A DNA stretch of 64,000 nt from Sulfurovum sp. XGS-02 (GTDB taxonomy: Bacteria; Campylobacterota; Campylobacteria; Campylobacterales; Sulfurovaceae), in contig NZ_CP093312.1 in assembly GCF_023213175.1 (NCBI RefSeq), positions 806,001 through 870,000 of the forward strand, in the 5' to 3' direction. A program made the translations under genes and the position numbers. Shown piece after piece: positions 53,247 through 61,468 of the stretch (positions are counted from its first letter, which is position 1; each line of letters begins with the position of its first letter). The notes beneath the pieces were generated by a model. It had not been told where the DNA came from. It was given only the letters and a program-made list of their open reading frames with translations, and ran no database searches.

Positions 53247-53621
53247 TTACATACTGCTTCCGCATTTTCCTGTTTCACATTTCATTGGTGGGATCTCTTT
53301 TTTGGGTGCTTTTACGGTATTGTCTGCTGCACATTTTGTGCTCAGTCTACCGGTCTCTTGGACACGAACACAATCATATACCTCTTTCGTACTTAAGGCT
53401 TTGAGTACACATTCCCGTCTGTTGTCCTCTTTTTCAAGCTGGTTTAAAATGTTCATTTTCTTTTTCACGAGTAGAGTAGAACCATCAACCATACTTGCAC
53501 CACATTTCCCTGGACCACACTTCATACCATCTTCTGTTAAGTCACTGGTTTTATCTTTATCGGTACACCCTGACAACAGTGATAGGGTTAAAAGCAGTGT
53601 GATCATTAGCTTTGATTTCAT
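53247..53621 (-). CDS. Lipoprotein with two MKCxxGKCG motifs, co-translated with an RND pump
   Basis: A 124-residue lipoprotein: the signal peptide SLLSGC gives a lipidation cysteine near residue 19. Motif copies are MKCGPGKCGASM (about 33-44) and MKCETGKCGSSM at the very end (about 113-124). Between them is a charged helical region with further cysteines. The start overlaps the CusA-like stop by four bases (ATGA), so it is translated with the pump. Together with the identical motif type in the SafE-like protein at 44 kb, a role in binding copper or silver is plausible but unproven. Confidence 0.75.
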   Translation of the reverse strand: MKSKLMITLLLTLSLLSGCTDKDKTSDLTEDGMKCGPGKCGASMVDGSTLLVKKKMNILNQLEKEDNRRECVLKALSTKEVYDCVRVQETGRLSTKCAADNTVKAPKKEIPPMKCETGKCGSSM

Positions 53622-56600
53622 TCATTCTCCTTGGATTGTTTTAATTGATATTTTTCATACATTTCATAAAAAATCGGAATAAGAAAGAGACTGAGTATAG
53701 CGGAACTGACAAGCCCTCCTATCATCGGTGCAGCTATACGCTGCATGACTTCACTTCCTATACCCGAAGTGTACATGATAGGCAGAAGTCCTGTCAAGAT
53801 GGCAAATACTGTCATGAGTTTGGGTCTTACTCTTTGAACGGCACCTTCATAAATAGCATCGGAGAGGTGTTGTCTATTAAATCTGGACCCCATTTTTTTA
53901 TGCATCGCTTCAACACTTTCTTGTAGATAGACGATCATAACTATGGCTGTTTCAGCGGCAATCCCAAGAAGTGCCAGGAAACCGACTATCACTGCAATAC
54001 TCATATTAAACTGTAAGACATATAAGTACACTATACCGCCGAGTAGAGCAAAGGGAAGGGTGAAAAATACAATAAGGGTAGGTACGAACTCTCCCAGTGC
54101 AAAATAGATTAGGATTAATATCAACAAGAGTACAATAGGCACTATCCATTTTATTTTTTGCATGGCTGAGTGAAGGTATTCTGATTGTCCTTCCCATTCC
54201 AGGTAATATCCGGGAGGGAGTTGTATATCTTTTAAGATTTTAACGGCTTCTTCTTTGTATTTGACGGCACTCACGCCTGGTTGTGGCGTAATATAGATAA
54301 AGGTGACCGGTGTTGCCATCTCACTTTTGATCACAGAAGCACTCTCCTTATATTCTACTGTGGTAAAGGTGGAGAGCGGTACAAATCCGAGCGGTGTTTT
54401 GACCTGTATATTGCGTATATCATCAAGGTTTCGACGCTCTTCCTCTTCAAATCGCAGTGCGATAGGGTAACGTTCCAAACCTTTATACATAGTAGTGATC
54501 TTTTTCCCACCTATCGCTGCAGAAGTATATGCTTCGATCAGTGATTTGGAAATGTTATAACGCTGTAACGCCTCGGCATCTATGTTGATGTCGATGAAAT
54601 ACCCTGCACTTGCCTGGTCAGAGAAAACAGACTGTGTTCCTTTCAGTTCACGAAGTCTTGACTCGATCTGCATGGCTACTGATTGCAGCCCTTGTGCATC
54701 TTTTCCATAAAGTTTGATACCCAGAGGCGTTCTTATACCTGAGAGCAACATATCAATACGGCCGCGTATAGGGTAGGTCCAGGAGTTCACAAGCCCAGGT
54801 ACCTGTAGTGCTTCTTCCATCTCCGCCATCAGTTTTTCATAGGTCATACCATCACGCCATTGTGACTTGGGTTTAAAAGTAATGATGGTTTCGATCATAC
54901 CAAGTGGAGCAGGGTCAGTGGCTGAATTGGCACGTCCTCCCTTACCGAACACTGTCTCTACTTCAGGAAAACTTTTAATGATCTGATCGGTTTTCTGTGT
55001 CAGTGCTTTGCTCTGATCCACGGAGATACCATAAGGTGTCACAGGCATATACATCACGGTTTGCTCATTGAGCATAGGCATGAATTCCCAGTTTAACTTT
55101 TTGTAAAGAGGCAGTGCAAATAGAAGTCCGCCAACAGCAAGAAAAATAACAATGTATTTGAGTTTTAAAGCATGGACCAAAAGTGGATGATAAAGCCAAA
55201 TAAAAAAACGGTTCAGCGGGTTCTTTGATTCGGGAATGATCCTCCCTTTGATGAAGTATATCATGAGTACAGGTACCAGTGTGACTGAGAGTATCGCTCC
55301 TGCAGTCATGGCAAAGGTTTTGGTAAAAGCAAGGGGGTTAAAGAGTAAGCCTTCTTGCCCCGAAAGTGCAAAGATCGGTAAAAAAGAGACAACTACAAGT
55401 GCCAGGGCAAAAAAGATAGGACGTCCCACAAGTTGAGAAGAGTGAATGATGGTTTTGATCCGTTCATCACGCTTTAGAGGTTCACCGTTCTCTTCGGTTT
55501 TTTTATGTATGGCCTTATGTGTATTCTCTATCATCACGATAGAAGCATCTACCATAGCACCGATAGCGATAGCGATACCTCCCAGACTCATAATATTTGA
55601 GTCTATACCAAAGATCTTCATCAGTAAAAAAGGGAGGGCAATGGTCAAGGGGAGCACGATAAGCATGATAAGTATGGAGCGAAAGTGCATCAAGAACAGA
55701 CCAATGACCAGGATCACAATGATACTCTCTTCAAATAGCGTCGTTTGAAGTGTTTTGATCGCTGATCCTATCAGTCCTGAACGGTCATAGGTCGTGATAA
55801 CATCCACATCTTCTATTTTGAGTTCTTGCATTTTGGACTTGATGCGTTTGATGACAGAGTAGACATCTTCCCCATATCGCACCATGACGATACCGCCTAC
55901 CACTTCTCCCTCTCCATTGAGGTCTGCCAGACCACGTCTGGCACTCGGTACCATCTCTACACGTCCCAATTGGGAGAGCGTCAGAGGTACACTGTTCTTG
56001 GTCGTGACGACAAGTTGTCGTATCTCATCCAGATCTTTGATATACCCTTTGGCCTGTACCATCCACTCATAACCGTTTTGAATGACGATCCGTCCACCGG
56101 TGTCATTATTGTTCTCTTTGAGTGCTTGAGAGATATCTTTGATAGAAAGATCGTACTGGACGAGTGCATCATTGTTCAGGGTAATTTGATAGGTGGGAAT
56201 AAACCCGCCTATACTGGCCACTTCACTCACACCATCTACACCCATCAGTGCATATTTGTAGTAATAGTCTTGAATCGTTCGCAGCTCATCAAGGCTCTTG
56301 GTTTGAGAGGTTAGGGCATATTCATAGACCCATCCGACTCCTGAAGCATCAGGCCCCAGTGTCACTTCCATCGTATCCGGAAGCTGACTTTGTATGGATG
56401 CCAGTTGTTCCAAAACACGGCTTCTGGCCCAATAGAGGTCTGTACCTTCTTTAAAAATAATGTAGATCAGAGCATTTTCATAGGTTGAAAAACCACGCAC
56501 GGTTTCAATATCCGAGATAGCAAGAAATTGTGAAACCAACGGATAGGTTCCCTGATCTTCTATGATCTCGGGGCTTTGGCCTTTCCATGTGACTTGTACG

Positions 56601-56743
56601 ATGACCTGTGGAGGAGAAAGGTCCGGCAGGGCATCCAGGGGAGTGTTCTTCATGGCCCAAATAGAACCTATGATGAGAAAGAGGGTGGTCATAAGGACAA
56701 GAAAACGATTTTTAGCCGAAAATACGATGAGTCGTTCTATCAT
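53618..56743 (-). CDS. cusA: CusA/CzcA-type heavy-metal RND efflux pump
   Basis: The 1041-residue inner-membrane pump has 12 helices and two large periplasmic loops. The HME-RND signature is present: an N-terminal RLIVFSAKNRFLVLMTTLFL, DPAPLGMIETIITFKPKSQW, RIDMLLSGIRTPLGIKLYG and GAMVDASIVMIENTHK. The conserved acidic residue in the fourth helix fits a proton-driven transporter. The metal (copper/silver versus zinc/cobalt/cadmium) cannot be set confidently from what I can see. Copper/silver is favoured by the Met-rich, CusB-like adaptor and the Cys-motif lipoprotein. The gene overlaps its neighbours on both sides. Confidence 0.9.
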   Translation of the reverse strand: MIERLIVFSAKNRFLVLMTTLFLIIGSIWAMKNTPLDALPDLSPPQVIVQVTWKGQSPEIIEDQGTYPLVSQFLAISDIETVRGFSTYENALIYIIFKEGTDLYWARSRVLEQLASIQSQLPDTMEVTLGPDASGVGWVYEYALTSQTKSLDELRTIQDYYYKYALMGVDGVSEVASIGGFIPTYQITLNNDALVQYDLSIKDISQALKENNNDTGGRIVIQNGYEWMVQAKGYIKDLDEIRQLVVTTKNSVPLTLSQLGRVEMVPSARRGLADLNGEGEVVGGIVMVRYGEDVYSVIKRIKSKMQELKIEDVDVITTYDRSGLIGSAIKTLQTTLFEESIIVILVIGLFLMHFRSILIMLIVLPLTIALPFLLMKIFGIDSNIMSLGGIAIAIGAMVDASIVMIENTHKAIHKKTEENGEPLKRDERIKTIIHSSQLVGRPIFFALALVVVSFLPIFALSGQEGLLFNPLAFTKTFAMTAGAILSVTLVPVLMIYFIKGRIIPESKNPLNRFFIWLYHPLLVHALKLKYIVIFLAVGGLLFALPLYKKLNWEFMPMLNEQTVMYMPVTPYGISVDQSKALTQKTDQIIKSFPEVETVFGKGGRANSATDPAPLGMIETIITFKPKSQWRDGMTYEKLMAEMEEALQVPGLVNSWTYPIRGRIDMLLSGIRTPLGIKLYGKDAQGLQSVAMQIESRLRELKGTQSVFSDQASAGYFIDINIDAEALQRYNISKSLIEAYTSAAIGGKKITTMYKGLERYPIALRFEEEERRNLDDIRNIQVKTPLGFVPLSTFTTVEYKESASVIKSEMATPVTFIYITPQPGVSAVKYKEEAVKILKDIQLPPGYYLEWEGQSEYLHSAMQKIKWIVPIVLLLILILIYFALGEFVPTLIVFFTLPFALLGGIVYLYVLQFNMSIAVIVGFLALLGIAAETAIVMIVYLQESVEAMHKKMGSRFNRQHLSDAIYEGAVQRVRPKLMTVFAILTGLLPIMYTSGIGSEVMQRIAAPMIGGLVSSAILSLFLIPIFYEMYEKYQLKQSKENE

Positions 56744-57768
56744 TAATAGATCCCGTTTATCTGAGCATCGGAGTCCATCATGAAGAGCGCATTGTCTACC
56801 AACGTATCTCCCTCATTCAGTCCTTTTATGATCTCATAATGTTTTGCGTCCAGAGGTTTTACCTGAATGACCATAGGTTCATACTCTCCTTTGAATTCCG
56901 TTGCAAGAAAAGCATACCACAGTCCATTTTTACGTATCGCTGCAGTTCGAGGTATGACAAGACGACTTTTTGTATCGGCTGATGCATAGACTTTTGCATA
57001 CATTCCCGGTTTTAATAACATGTCATCATTATCAAGTTGAAGTCTTAACGTAGCGGTTGCCTCTTTAGGGTCCAGTTCCGGGTAAAGAAGATTTTTTTGT
57101 GCTGTATATGTTTTGGAAATACCTTTGGCTTTGACACTGAAATGTGTAAGAAGAGGTAGATTTTCGATCTCATCCTGGTAGAGCTTGACCTCTACCCATA
57201 CTTTGTCCAGGTTTACGATCTGAAAGAGCTTTTTTTGAGGGCTGAAAGATGCACCTTCATTAATGTTTTTTTCAAATATCCACCCCGACTGCGGTGCATA
57301 GATGGTGGTGAACGTATCGACCTTACGTTTAGTGTCGATGCGTTTGATCTCTTCATCATGTACACCTAAGAGGCGCAGTTTGGTTTTCGCACTCTGAAGC
57401 ATTTGGGGAGAAGGGTGCTTTTCATTGAACTCCAAGGAGTGTAAGTAGTCCTGTTTGGACTTGTAGACTTCCGGAGAGTAGACATGGGCTAAGGCATCAC
57501 CTTTTTCTACTTTTTTATAGAGTGTATCAGCAAAAAGTTTTGTGATATAGCCTGAAAACCATGCATGTATATCGATCTTTCGTGAATCTTCAGCAACGAT
57601 ATATCCGTAGTTTATTTGTTCTTTGGCGGATGTTATCTTTTTTACTTTTACAGTCTTTACACTAAAAAGCTGTTCTATGGTGGGGAAAGAGCTATTGTGT
57701 TCCTGAGAGAGTGACAACACCGGGATCAGTAAAAATGTGAGGATTGTTTTCATATGTATGGATACCAT
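56743..57768 (-). CDS. cusB: CusB/CzcB-type periplasmic adaptor
   Basis: The 341-residue membrane fusion protein has an N-terminal signal (TILTFLLIPVLSLSQ), then lipoyl, hairpin and beta-barrel segments: GYIVAEDSRKIDIHAWFSGYITKL, KGDALAHVYSPEVYKSKQDYL, APQSGWIFEKNINEGASF, and LLKPGMYAKVYA. The start shares a base with the stop of the TolC-type gene, and the stop overlaps the CusA start. AGGTG upstream supports the ATG at 57768, although an internal ATG 15 bases in is possible. Confidence 0.88.
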   Translation of the reverse strand: MVSIHMKTILTFLLIPVLSLSQEHNSSFPTIEQLFSVKTVKVKKITSAKEQINYGYIVAEDSRKIDIHAWFSGYITKLFADTLYKKVEKGDALAHVYSPEVYKSKQDYLHSLEFNEKHPSPQMLQSAKTKLRLLGVHDEEIKRIDTKRKVDTFTTIYAPQSGWIFEKNINEGASFSPQKKLFQIVNLDKVWVEVKLYQDEIENLPLLTHFSVKAKGISKTYTAQKNLLYPELDPKEATATLRLQLDNDDMLLKPGMYAKVYASADTKSRLVIPRTAAIRKNGLWYAFLATEFKGEYEPMVIQVKPLDAKHYEIIKGLNEGDTLVDNALFMMDSDAQINGIY

Positions 57769-58961
57769 TATATTTCACCTATAAGAGATTTGAGTTGTGT
57801 CTGTGTTCGAAGGTATTCGCCTTTGATGGAGATGCGCTGTTCTTCCAGATCGAGTTTTTGTTCGAGAAGATTGGTGTAAGCAAAAAGGTCACCTCCGCTT
57901 TGAATGCCCGATTGACTCAGTTCGATCATATGTTCAAGCTGAGGCAGGCTCTCATTTTGGATAATGTGATAAACCTGGTAGGCTTCAGTGAGTTTGGCAT
58001 ACATCACAGTAATTTCACTCTCCAAAGAAGATCTGTAGTCTAAAGAGGCACTTGCTGCGGCAAGGGCTTCTTTACGTGCTGCTTCTGCCTGATGTTTTTC
58101 TGAACCATATAAAGGCAGAGAGATCCCCACTGTTACAGAGGCATAATCAGGAAATTCCTGACGGTTGTAATAGCCTACATTTACATAAGGGTCCGGTGTC
58201 ATACTCAGCTCCTGTATGACTTTGTTCGCATCAGCGATATTTTTCTCAGAGAGTTTCATATGGTAGTTTAGATTGTTCTGTGACTTGGAAAGATAGCTTT
58301 CCAATGGTCCGGGAGGTTTTATTTCGAATGGATCAGATATCTTGGAGACCTCTCCTTGTACAAGGTATTTGAGTTTAGCCTGTTGGTTCTTCAAGATCAT
58401 TTTATAGCGTTCATGTTTGATCTTTATTTTAGTAAGCATTAAATTTGCAGCCATCATGCTTGTGTGACTTTTATTCTCAGTAGATGCATAGGAGGTATAG
58501 AGATCTATATTTTGTTTGGCTACAGCGTTATACCGATTGACAATACGGATACGTGCTTCAAGTTCTTTCATGGTATAGGCTGTTATACGTATCTCTTTAG
58601 CCAGTGTGATCTTGGCTGCTTCATAGGAGTCCAATATAAGACTTTTTTGTGCTTTTGTAAAGCTTGTTCGAGCATCGAGTTTACCGAACCAAGGAAATTT
58701 TTGTTTCACATTAATTGCATTGAACTGCATAGGTTCAAGGCCACGGCCAGAGGGATTATCAAACTGTATGTCATTGATGGTCAAAGAGATATCCGGATTA
58801 GAGAAGTTCTGACTCTCTTCTATACGTGCATCCATTGCAGAGAGACGGTGCTGGATGGTCTGAAGTGAAGGGTGCTTTTTGAGTGATTGATCGATAAGTT
58901 GTTGAATACTTTCTGCCTGTAGCACACCTACAGTACATAAAGTAAAAAGAATGATACGCAT
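57768..58961 (-). CDS. cusC: CusC/TolC-type outer membrane channel
   Basis: The 397-residue outer-membrane efflux protein has a signal peptide (IILFTLCTVGVLQA). It then has long helices with the usual SLKKHPSLQTI start, FSNPDISLTINDI, KFPWFGKLDART and a mirrored second repeat. It is the first gene of a compact minus-strand operon (cusC-cusB-cusA-lipoprotein), in which every junction overlaps by one to four bases. The upstream 140 bases to the divergent 59.1-kb promoter contain nothing else recognised. Confidence 0.87.
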   Translation of the reverse strand: MRIILFTLCTVGVLQAESIQQLIDQSLKKHPSLQTIQHRLSAMDARIEESQNFSNPDISLTINDIQFDNPSGRGLEPMQFNAINVKQKFPWFGKLDARTSFTKAQKSLILDSYEAAKITLAKEIRITAYTMKELEARIRIVNRYNAVAKQNIDLYTSYASTENKSHTSMMAANLMLTKIKIKHERYKMILKNQQAKLKYLVQGEVSKISDPFEIKPPGPLESYLSKSQNNLNYHMKLSEKNIADANKVIQELSMTPDPYVNVGYYNRQEFPDYASVTVGISLPLYGSEKHQAEAARKEALAAASASLDYRSSLESEITVMYAKLTEAYQVYHIIQNESLPQLEHMIELSQSGIQSGGDLFAYTNLLEQKLDLEEQRISIKGEYLRTQTQLKSLIGEI

Positions 58962-59111
58962 TGTTTCTCCCGGGTTTTTTTGCTGTCCTAATTAAGATTA
59001 GATGTATTTTATCGTATTTCTGTGTACCCGGTGTGCAAAGGTTTGAACAATATAAAATCATATGCAATAAATGAGTTTAGATATAAAAAACAATAAAACC
59101 TATAGATTTAC

Positions 59112-59140
59112 TTGACATTAAAAAAAGATTTGGTTACTAT
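59112..59140 (+). promoter_or_regulatory. Consensus sigma-70 promoter of the DUF4395-rrf2-metY-like unit
   Basis: TTGACA (59112-59117), a 17-base spacer and TACTAT (59135-59140) give a near-consensus promoter, the strongest I found in the window. Initiation would be near 59147, giving a leader of about 200 bases. Confidence 0.7.
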
Positions 59141-59151
59141 ACACTTATAAA

Positions 59152-59300
59152 ATGAAATTAGCACTTGTAAAAACCCTAGATATTTACATAAGACAAGGGT
59201 ATTGCACATTTTTTAGTTATTTTAGTCTCCCCTATAGTCAAACTGAGAAAAATGTCAATGCTGTAAATTACTCTAGGGTCTTTAGAGGTGCTGATGATAT
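59152..59300 (+). ncRNA. Long palindromic leader, candidate structured RNA or foldback element
   Basis: Paired segments nest in order. 59157-59166 pairs with 59286-59295, 59168-59171 with 59281-59284, 59173-59180 (ACCCTAGA) with 59272-59279 (TCTAGGGT), and 59182-59188 with 59262-59268. Inside, 59201-59204 plus 59206-59213 pair with 59248-59259 around one bulged C. That is over 40 base pairs with few interruptions, starting about five bases after the predicted transcription start. CCCT in the apical loop could pair with AGGG in the unpaired 59189-59200 strand. I match it to no known riboswitch. It may also be a degenerate mobile foldback. Confidence 0.55.
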
Positions 59301-59347
59301 AGCTAAGGCACTTACCTTAAAATGCTACTTCAATGAAAGGAAAGAAT

Positions 59348-59806
59348 ATGTCTCCAAGTTGTCCGATATCCACAAGAAGAGTTGACGCTAATATGGTAAG
59401 AATTATCTCTTTTCAGGTAGCACTTTTTACGCTTATATTTTTGATCTCACAAGAGAGTGCCTTTGCATGGGTCATACTGTTTGATTTTTTGATGCGAGCA
59501 TTACGTTTATCAAGCTTCAGTCCATTTGAGCTCATGGGTAAGTTCGTACTCAGAGGGTGGGGTGTTGCACCTAAACTTTGTGATGAATCACCAAAAAGGT
59601 TCGCTCTGTATCTTGGTCTAGTCACTTCGTTGTTCATTGTCGTCTTTTATTTTGCCGGTTTTACACTATTTGCTACTGTGGTAGCAGTTATTTTATTAAT
59701 TTGTGCATTACTTGAGACAGTATTCGATTTTTGTATAGGATGTAAGCTATACTATGCAATACAAATCGGTAAAGGTCTCTTAGGAAATGATAGGAATATC
59801 CAGTAA
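59348..59806 (+). CDS. DUF4395 family membrane protein
   Basis: The 152-residue protein has a cysteine near the start (SPSCPISTRRVD), four hydrophobic helices, and the family pattern DFLMRALRLSSFSPFELMGKFV with a second Cys region DFCIGCKLYY near the C-terminus. The function is unknown; the family often neighbours sulfur or thiol genes. The ATG at 59348 has AAAGGAA upstream; the alternative ATG at 59333 is less well placed. Its end overlaps the Rrf2 gene by 20 bases. Confidence 0.85.
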   Translation: MSPSCPISTRRVDANMVRIISFQVALFTLIFLISQESAFAWVILFDFLMRALRLSSFSPFELMGKFVLRGWGVAPKLCDESPKRFALYLGLVTSLFIVVFYFAGFTLFATVVAVILLICALLETVFDFCIGCKLYYAIQIGKGLLGNDRNIQ

Positions 59807-60200
59807 AACAATTTATGCGATCGCTGCACTTCAGGAGTTGGGCTCCATTCCCGACGATAAAGTCCTTAAGATAAAAGAGATAGCTGCCAATGCAGCTATC
59901 CCGCAAAACTTTTTGGAACAAATACTTTTAGAACTTAAAAAGCAGGGGCTTCTTACCAGCATTAAAGGTGCACATGGCGGGTACAAACTTGCAAAAAGCC
60001 TCAAAGATATCACACTTAAAGATGTGGTGCTTATCCTGGAGTCAGATATATTTGCCGATAATTACCAAACGGAGAGTCAGGCACTTAAACTTTTTTGGGA
60101 TGACATTAAACAAAAAGTCTCATCGGTGTTCGAGATCCCATTGTCTGAACTGAAGAACTATCAACTTAAAGCCAACCAAATATTAAATTACTCTATATAG
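59787..60200 (+). CDS. Rrf2-family regulator without iron-sulfur cysteines (CymR-like)
   Basis: The 137-residue winged-helix protein shows the Rrf2 pattern SSKTIYAIAALQEL, KEIAANAAIPQNFLEQILLELKKQGLL and GAHGGYKLAKSLKDITL. It contains no cysteine, so it cannot hold the Fe-S cluster of IscR or NsrR. Cluster-free Rrf2 proteins include CymR, which controls cysteine metabolism. It is overlapped by DUF4395 and followed by a sulfhydrylase-type gene nine bases later, which supports a sulfur amino acid role. Confidence 0.88.
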   Translation: MIGISSKTIYAIAALQELGSIPDDKVLKIKEIAANAAIPQNFLEQILLELKKQGLLTSIKGAHGGYKLAKSLKDITLKDVVLILESDIFADNYQTESQALKLFWDDIKQKVSSVFEIPLSELKNYQLKANQILNYSI

Positions 60201-60208
60201 GAATAAAG

Positions 60209-61468
60209 ATGAACAATACCACTGATTTTGACTATTTCAATACGCTGCTTGTACAAAGTGTAGGTTCTAAGGTAGGGCCTATTGCACCTACGATCACTCC
60301 GTCGGCTGCTTATGGTTATGAAAATGCTGAAGAAGCAGAAGGCATCTTTGCTGCACAGGTCAATAAACCGCTCTATGCAAGGGTAGGAAATCCGACTAAT
60401 GCTAAACTGGAAGCTATAGTAGCGAAGATGGAAGGCGGATTCGGTGCCATTGCTACTTCTTCAGGTATGGGGGCTATTTCGATGGTATGCAGTGCTTTTT
60501 TATCTGCTGGGGATGAATTGCTTTGTATCGGTGGTTTCTTTGGGGGTACCTATTCACTTGTGAATGAAACGTTGGCACGTTTTGGTGTGAGGAACAGTTT
60601 TTGTACCGTAGATGATTTTGAACATATAGAAGCAACACTTCAGCGTGGTATCAAGATGGTTCTTTTTGAGTCTGTAGGGAATCCAAGCCTTACACTGCCT
60701 GATATACAGCGTATTATTGATCTTTGTAACAAGTATGAAACACTGGTCATGATAGACAATACCGCGACACCGCTTTTGGTAAGACCACTCGAGATGGGTG
60801 CAGATATCTCTGTGCACTCTTCAACCAAAAATATGTCCGGGCACTCAGCTGCACTTGGTGGGATCGCTGTTTTCAGAGCGGTAAAAGAGGAGGGTGAAAA
60901 ATTATTGAACCCAAAATATGCCGATGTACATAAAATCGTGAAAAAGATGGGAGAAAAAGCATTTATACCTATCTGTAAAAAACGTGCCATTCGTGATTTC
61001 GGCATGACTGCCAATGCCTTTGGTTCATTTATGACCATGGTAGGGCTGGAAACACTCTCACTCAGGGTAGAGAGGATCAATAAAAGTGTTGAAACCGTTG
61101 CCGCCCTGCTTGATGAGAAACTGCCAGATGGGGTAAGTGTGAATCACCCATCATTGGTAACAAGCCCTGATCACGCAAGATATAAGTCGGACTTTGCACA
61201 GGGGTGTGGTCCTTTACTCACTATAGACTGTGGGACAAAAGAGAAGGCGTTTACTTTCCTCAACAAACTGAACCATGTGATACAAACAGCAAACATCGGG
61301 GACAATCGAACACTTGCACTGCATATGACCAGTACCATTTATAGTGATTTCAATGAAGAAACCCGTAAATTCCTGGGTGTACATGAAGGGTTGATCCGTG
61401 TCTCCATAGGTTTGGAAGATCCTAAGGTCATTGCAGAGGACTTTTTACAAGCTGCGAATGCATTGTAA
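60209..61468 (+). CDS. PLP-dependent Cys/Met metabolism enzyme (O-acetylhomoserine sulfhydrylase or methionine gamma-lyase type)
   Basis: The 419-residue protein is of the trans-sulfuration fold. Motifs are PLYARVGNPTNAKLE, ATSSGMGAISMV, the TVDDFEHIEATL region, and the PLP lysine in SVHSSTKNMSGHSAALGG. The exact reaction (OAH sulfhydrylase, cystathionine gamma-synthase or methionine gamma-lyase) cannot be separated by motif alone. The neighbouring Rrf2 gene and the sulfur context favour homocysteine synthesis from O-acetylhomoserine and sulfide, suited to a sulfur-oxidising organism. Confidence 0.85.
   Translation: MNNTTDFDYFNTLLVQSVGSKVGPIAPTITPSAAYGYENAEEAEGIFAAQVNKPLYARVGNPTNAKLEAIVAKMEGGFGAIATSSGMGAISMVCSAFLSAGDELLCIGGFFGGTYSLVNETLARFGVRNSFCTVDDFEHIEATLQRGIKMVLFESVGNPSLTLPDIQRIIDLCNKYETLVMIDNTATPLLVRPLEMGADISVHSSTKNMSGHSAALGGIAVFRAVKEEGEKLLNPKYADVHKIVKKMGEKAFIPICKKRAIRDFGMTANAFGSFMTMVGLETLSLRVERINKSVETVAALLDEKLPDGVSVNHPSLVTSPDHARYKSDFAQGCGPLLTIDCGTKEKAFTFLNKLNHVIQTANIGDNRTLALHMTSTIYSDFNEETRKFLGVHEGLIRVSIGLEDPKVIAEDFLQAANAL

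Follow-up and report, generated by a model that had tools for sequence, protein, structure and literature searches.

The window, by which we mean the whole 64,000-nucleotide stretch of Sulfurovum sp. XGS-02 DNA that was analysed, carries on its forward strand a gene for a DUF4395 membrane protein (59348-59806, +; Pfam PF14340, 98.5 bits), followed by a gene for an Rrf2-family regulator (59787-60200, +) and by metY, an O-acetylhomoserine sulfhydrylase-like gene (60209-61468, +; Cys_Met_Meta_PP, 293.7 bits). The closest equivalog model for the regulator is CymR, although its 79.4 bits fall below the NCBIfam cut-off of 195 bits, and the best NCBIfam model for metY, OAH_OAS_sulfhy, likewise scores 288 bits, under its cut-off of 495. 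The Rrf2 protein sequence is without any cysteine, and should therefore not carry an Fe-S cluster. Divergent from the operon promoter, on the minus strand at 53618-58961, is an apparent RND-type efflux operon whose members, judged from their ORF sequences, are a 1041-aa pump, a 341-aa adaptor and a 397-aa outer-membrane-type protein. A second, weakly DUF4395-like stretch (26-33%) was seen on the opposite strand just 5' of the leader described below in two related loci (L048, 1178-903; L086, 1158-814), and similar opposite-strand stretches occur in L060, L068, L088, L089 and L091.

A sigma-70-type promoter, TTGACA-17-TACTAT, lies at 59112-59140 (+), as the consensus promoter that the earlier note had seen ahead of the leader, and was found by a scan and is conserved in orthologues. 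As shuffling this AT-rich stretch makes such sites no less frequent, its support comes from conservation; orthologues keep the same -35/-10 pair, with its -10 box 7-28 nt, mostly 15-18 nt, 5' of the leader stem. The promoter region also holds a conserved box, AAACCTATAGATTTACTTGACA (59097-59117, +), made up of the near-palindrome AAAYCTATAGATTT and the -35 element, which is kept in orthologous loci both with and without the leader and is probably an Rrf2 site. The CTATAGATTTACTTGACA box has one further exact copy in the genome (G000:C1:351417-351434; locus L166, 1501-3018), the next-best matches having three mismatches and being on a par with the control. This second copy precedes a second DUF4395 gene (DUF4395b) and cysK, encoding cysteine synthase, a pair that is a candidate second member of the Rrf2 regulon, and no leader is present at that site. 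The arrangement suggests that one regulator may serve both the metY and cysK branches while an added RNA layer would act on metY alone, and since the box is shared and the leader is not, it would point to a methionine-branch signal for the leader.

Between the promoter and the first gene lies the leader RNA itself, at 59158-59293 (+; covariance-model match of 112 bits, E 2e-22 over the sequences searched). The original description of this stretch as a self-pairing foldback was accurate, as every arm named is present: RNAfold gives 59140-59347 a free energy of -56.8 kcal/mol compared with -36.1 +/- 4.1 for shuffles (z = -5.0), and none of 200 dinucleotide shuffles folds as well. As also anticipated, the leader ends 5' of the DUF4395 ribosome-binding site (start codon, 59348-59350); among orthologues the spacer from leader to start codon varies from 16 to 123 nt. 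In the outer stem, AGCACTT (59160-59166) pairs with AGGTGCT (59286-59292), prolonged by ATT/GAT, after which TAAA pairs with TTTA and ACCCTAGA (59173-59180) with TCTAGGGT (59272-59279), the left and right arms together spanning 59160-59180 and 59272-59292 (both +). P3 follows, ATTTACA (59182-59188, +) being paired with TGTAAAT (59262-59268), and then, at about 59190-59199 (+), an unpaired 5' bulge that reads AAGACAAGG / AAGACAAGGG here and has no bases opposite. The P4/P5 stems and the apical loop occupy 59198-59261 (+), the inner stem being interrupted and the loop containing the motif AGUCUCCCC (59224-59232, +). Individual folds of homologues recover the same architecture of a long outer helix (P1/P2), P3, the one-sided bulge GGACAAGG, P4/P5 and a large apical loop. 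A 77-codon open frame (59152-59385, +) crosses the leader and continues, in a different reading frame, past the start of DUF4395, probably by chance.

The unpaired bulge, GGACAAGGG in most leaders and near invariant, is among the most conserved positions of the RNA together with the loop, (UU/UA)GUCUCCCC and AUUGUU. It had been proposed that this strand is unpaired and positioned to pair with CCCU in the apical loop: it is indeed unpaired, but the better-supported partner is GUCU (59225-59228 here; GUUC in one clade), with which GGAC of the bulge can pair, and this pairing is itself weakly to moderately supported. Changes at GGAC/GUCU are one-sided only, and the apical loop is ~20-25 bp away from the bulge, leaving a pseudoknot geometrically strained; we would put forward a bulge-loop pseudoknot only as a weak hypothesis. 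Four loci (L018, L019, L042 and L174) have lost the bulge motif and kept the loop, and L012, L018, L042 and L174 count among the reduced forms of the leader. In the clade to which the window belongs, AGAC is found and the loop is shortened. Three other ideas about these motifs were rejected. A co-transcriptional nested GGAC:GUCU hairpin has a probability above 0.5 in the partial transcripts of only 5 of 42 leaders; a CsrA site (ACAAGGG) is contradicted by the alignment, the window's clade having AGACAAGGG, without GGA; and the inner motif is not a mobile module used elsewhere, as GGACAAGG-N20-45-GTCTCCC occurs away from the locus at the control rate only.

The leader was found once in the 2.19-Mb genome, by DNA search and by covariance-model search (E 1.8e-21). 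The only other match of the model there is the leader's own antisense strand, at 43 bits, and the genome has no further match to the repeat arm within three mismatches, so the palindrome, whose dispersal the earlier note had named as a sign of a foldback element, is not dispersed. A DUF4395 protein query yielded 41 orthologous loci, nearly all titled Sulfurovum, of which 36 have the leader or a reduced form of it 5' of DUF4395, while the other five (L013, L016, L024, L026 and L035) have none and retain the promoter box. When a covariance model built from 31 orthologous loci (R1) was run on 78 genomes of the genus, a strong leader (>= 84 bits) was present in 43, in one copy each and always at the DUF4395-rrf2-metY operon, in a consistent position between the promoter and the same genes; leader antisense strands aside, the remaining matches reached no more than ~52 bits. 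The strong leader accompanies rrf2, being present in 43 of the 57 genomes with an rrf2 orthologue and in none of the 21 without. The other 14 rrf2 genomes comprise six with a reduced or decaying leader (G404, G416, G428, G424, G447 and G204), seven with none and one, G434, in which a contig end interrupts the locus. In 397 genomes of the phylum from outside the genus, a many-genome search, whose stricter filters could miss weak leaders, yielded nothing but short or palindromic matches that proved to be MITEs. In G397, with a strong leader, and G447, with a weak and reduced one, the leader stands directly 5' of rrf2 and no DUF4395 was found in the locus, from which it follows that the RNA tracks rrf2-metY. 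Two of the individual loci differ in other ways: in that of G397 (L095, 1708-2247) just 34 metY residues match behind rrf2, and metY may be broken or replaced, and in that of G204 (L178), in which DUF4395 was not found, a decaying leader 5' of rrf2 at 1525 has its left arm and GUAGUCUCC loop left and its right arm gone.

The proposal that a leader RNA heads this sulfur-related rrf2 operon is supported by strong compensatory covariation in homologues. Across 42 distinct leaders aligned to the model, standard pairs fill 96.8% of the proposed pair cells, and two-sided compensatory changes occur in 19 of 28 pairs (92 cells), including all four modelled pairs of P3. The base of P4 covaries as well, as do both outer-stem arms, whose columns are ungapped in nearly all rows. 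In P2, for example, CUGGC/ACCCAGG in one leader corresponds to CUAGA/UCUAGG in another, and in P4 GAUACCC/GGGUAUC corresponds to GCAUU/AAUGU. Controls in which the partner was slid by 1-3 columns were 37-49% paired with 8-25 two-sided cells, column shuffles never attained the observed values, and the covariation picture was the same on a MAFFT alignment made independently of the model. Relatedness is not fully removed by this alignment control, yet with so large an effect and so many independent pair types we regard the compensatory conservation, as read from these alignments, as safe.

The same alignment indicates which molecule has been under selection. G-U cells outnumber A-C cells by 111:9, and by 47:9 after the two pairs in which G-U is the norm are dropped; as a palindrome kept at the DNA level would not show this skew, the selected molecule is the sense RNA. 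The palindromic arms could in principle have been kept as a DNA foldback, either a cruciform or a protein-binding site, and never as an RNA, but with only the sense strand kept pairable and covariance-model scores of about 28-51 bits for the antisense against 84-145 bits for the sense strand, we consider this extremely improbable. Nor do we think it at all likely that the leader is a neutral MITE relic whose conservation reflects nothing more than its place within a constrained promoter region. Such a relic would account for the homology of both arms to a terminal inverted repeat and for the loss or decay of the leader in some lineages; it is largely refuted by the covariation, with compensatory changes in 19 pairs and the G-U over A-C bias, and it sits poorly with the near-invariant unpaired motifs, with the persistence of the leader even where the DUF4395 proteins of different loci have diverged by up to ~45%, and with the leader-less loci, where the promoter stands directly 5' of the gene.

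The origin of the outer stem came to light because weak covariance-model matches at other sites turned out to be MITE palindromes. Four of these matches (L049-L052) are palindromes ending in GGGCACCTCTAAAAACTCTAG. Of the 78 genus genomes, 26 contain this end according to a pattern search in which the reversed control pattern had no matches, and so do 19 of 299 genomes of the order, from at least 12 genera. Most pairs of ends are exactly 266 bp apart, and there are shorter, internally deleted relatives of ~50-188 bp (185, 166, 129 and 50-59 bp). These 266-bp elements, with the terminal repeat GGGCACCTCTAAAAACCCTAG, are a MITE family that extends across Campylobacterales (L098-L123, L128-L140 and many further genomes of the order). 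Their interiors hold none of the leader motifs. In G446 one MITE end lies ~160 bp past a transposase gene (DDE_Tnp_1, DDE_Tnp_1_6), which we take to resemble the IS1182 family; a single end is visible on the contig.

Both arms of the leader are homologous to this terminal repeat, the reverse complement of the right arm being three mismatches off GGGCACCTCTAAAAACYCTAG. With a weight matrix built from 38 MITE ends and a control of 381,700 windows, the left arm scores above the control maximum in 35 of the 42 leaders and the right arm in 37. The MITEs were found via the leader model, which brings some ascertainment, and even so the match between arm and repeat is far too long for chance. The leader thus shares the terminal inverted repeats of a MITE but not its multiple dispersed copies, there being one copy in the genome; its flanks have diverged too far for a target-site duplication to be informative. 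The idea in the earlier note that a degraded foldback element might be at hand was accordingly right about origin, the outer arms being homologous to MITE terminal inverted repeats, and wrong about the present state, because the leader has kept its sequence and fold and is no degraded junk. A tree built from the three operon proteins (a quick FastTree of the concatenation in which some nodes are weakly supported) has the leader on all major branches and the leader-less loci nested in leader-bearing clades, which implies at least four losses. The most economical history would have the element inserted once, in the Sulfurovum ancestor, between promoter and gene.

No Rfam family reaches threshold in the window, and a permissive Rfam search (E up to 10) of eleven sequences returned six chance-level matches, all far under gathering scores; known Rfam leaders match neither the window nor the orthologous loci. 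The 6S RNA model RF00013 has no match in the genome, which is a weak negative alone as the model recovers 6S in just 5 of 14 control genomes, and the position at the head of an operon also speaks against 6S. Could the leader be a small RNA in its own right that uses the operon promoter by coincidence? A strong promoter directly 5' and a self-contained fold would suit such an RNA, but the leader is found solely directly 5' of the DUF4395-rrf2-metY operon and has no terminator behind it, so that the transcript should continue into the operon, and we judge the idea highly improbable. The scan found no terminator-like site anywhere in the leader region. Sequestration of the ribosome site by the CUCCCC loop is unsupported as well, the pairing energy between loop and ribosome site being no better for a leader's own gene than for other genomes' genes (permutation p = 0.28) or with shuffled loops. 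The leader therefore shows neither of the two classical riboswitch expression platforms that were looked for, terminator or SD sequestration.

Taken together, we favor, at a probability of roughly 0.6, a MITE-derived, conserved, cis-acting leader RNA of ~140 nt that acts on DUF4395-rrf2-metY alone, most likely as a sensor-like device tuning rrf2-metY. In the Sulfurovum ancestor, a MITE-type element would have inserted behind an Rrf2-controlled promoter and ahead of the first gene, and its two terminal inverted repeats would have become the outer stem. The leader would begin ~10 nt into the DUF4395-rrf2-metY mRNA and act after initiation and on no other operon; most likely a ligand or protein would recognise its bulge GGACAAGG and its apical loop, GUCUCCCC...AUUGUU, and so tune rrf2-metY expression through a platform as yet unrecognised. 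The analysis shows where the leader lies, its structure and covariation, selection on the sense strand, its restriction to one locus, the homology to terminal inverted repeats and its repeated loss; from these patterns we infer the transcription of the leader, its regulatory effect and the direction of that effect, and any link to the methionine branch. Several lineages have dropped the leader and kept the operon, and thus it is not essential.

Another role, which we regard as unlikely but worth keeping in mind, is that of a processing or stability hairpin, in which the 5' stem would be a target of RNase III or another RNase, or a shield against it, and would set mRNA lifetime with no ligand involved. 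The near-continuous outer helix at the 5' end and the MITE origin would fit, and Correia elements in mRNA are reported to be bound and cleaved by RNase III (PMC10969869, PMC2649163). What such a hairpin leaves unexplained is the near-invariant unpaired bulge and apical loop, as well as the outer-stem mismatches (G-G, A-C) retained in many lineages. Because RNase-controlled mRNA lifetime needs no conserved unpaired sequence, the conserved bulge and loop favor a sensor or protein-binding element. It is tempting to go further and to imagine a transposon-derived riboswitch, in which the MITE repeats are the scaffold and the interior evolved a ligand-sensing bulge and loop, giving metY a separate signal. 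If this were true, the methionine branch (metY) would be signalled apart from the cysteine branch (cysK), which has the same promoter box and no leader. Metabolite riboswitches are often at several loci, however, and the presence of the leader at one locus only counts against the favored, sensor-like reading as well; the riboswitch in this specific form seems to us rather doubtful.

To our knowledge, the origins of bacterial structured leader RNAs are mostly unknown. Here the scaffold stem can be followed back to a MITE family that relatives still possess, namely to its terminal repeats, and compensatory evolution of the RNA is seen across the genus at a single locus. The locus also suggests an uncharacterised sulfur regulon, Rrf2 with DUF4395, metY and cysK, in Sulfurovum, whose members are abundant marine sulfur oxidisers. 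In the open-access literature we found no account of this leader RNA, and none of any leader derived from a MITE and conserved by compensatory change. The leader is a new leader-RNA family of a known general kind, with an origin that is unusual and traceable.

Several known systems come close to it in one respect or another. Like SAM and SAH riboswitches, it is a structured leader 5' of a methionine-pathway gene; unlike them, it has no Rfam match, a hairpin-like single architecture and no recognised aptamer or expression platform. The 266-bp Campylobacterales MITE has a terminal inverted repeat that matches both leader arms, but its interior is unrelated, and it is multi-copy and dispersed in other genomes and absent from that of Sulfurovum sp. 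XGS-02. The Correia elements (CREE/NEMIS) of Neisseria are MITEs, 100-157 bp long, that fold in mRNA through pairing of their ends into a stem which RNase III binds or cuts (PMC2649163, PMC10969869). As in the leader, MITE-derived paired ends form a stem between promoter and gene, but Correia elements are multi-copy, mobile and dispersed, whereas the leader is single-copy and fixed at one operon, shows compensatory evolution and has conserved unpaired motifs of its own. The BOX, RUP and SPRITE repeats of Streptococcus pneumoniae, which are likewise small and end up as structured segments of mRNAs, differ from it in being dispersed and multi-copy, and the T-box riboswitches at trp adjoin a BOX element and are not built from it (PMC3049150). 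In the case of 'mobile attenuators', parts of insertion sequences have been proposed to be exapted 5' of cellular genes (PMC2965389), but these are intrinsic terminators and the leader has no terminator. That MITEs in mRNAs affect stability is already known (PMC10969869, PMC2649163). As the formation of riboswitches from MITEs is listed only as conceivable in a 2024 review of prokaryotic MITEs (PMC10969869), the leader offers a concrete and testable case of the passage from mobile element to regulatory RNA.
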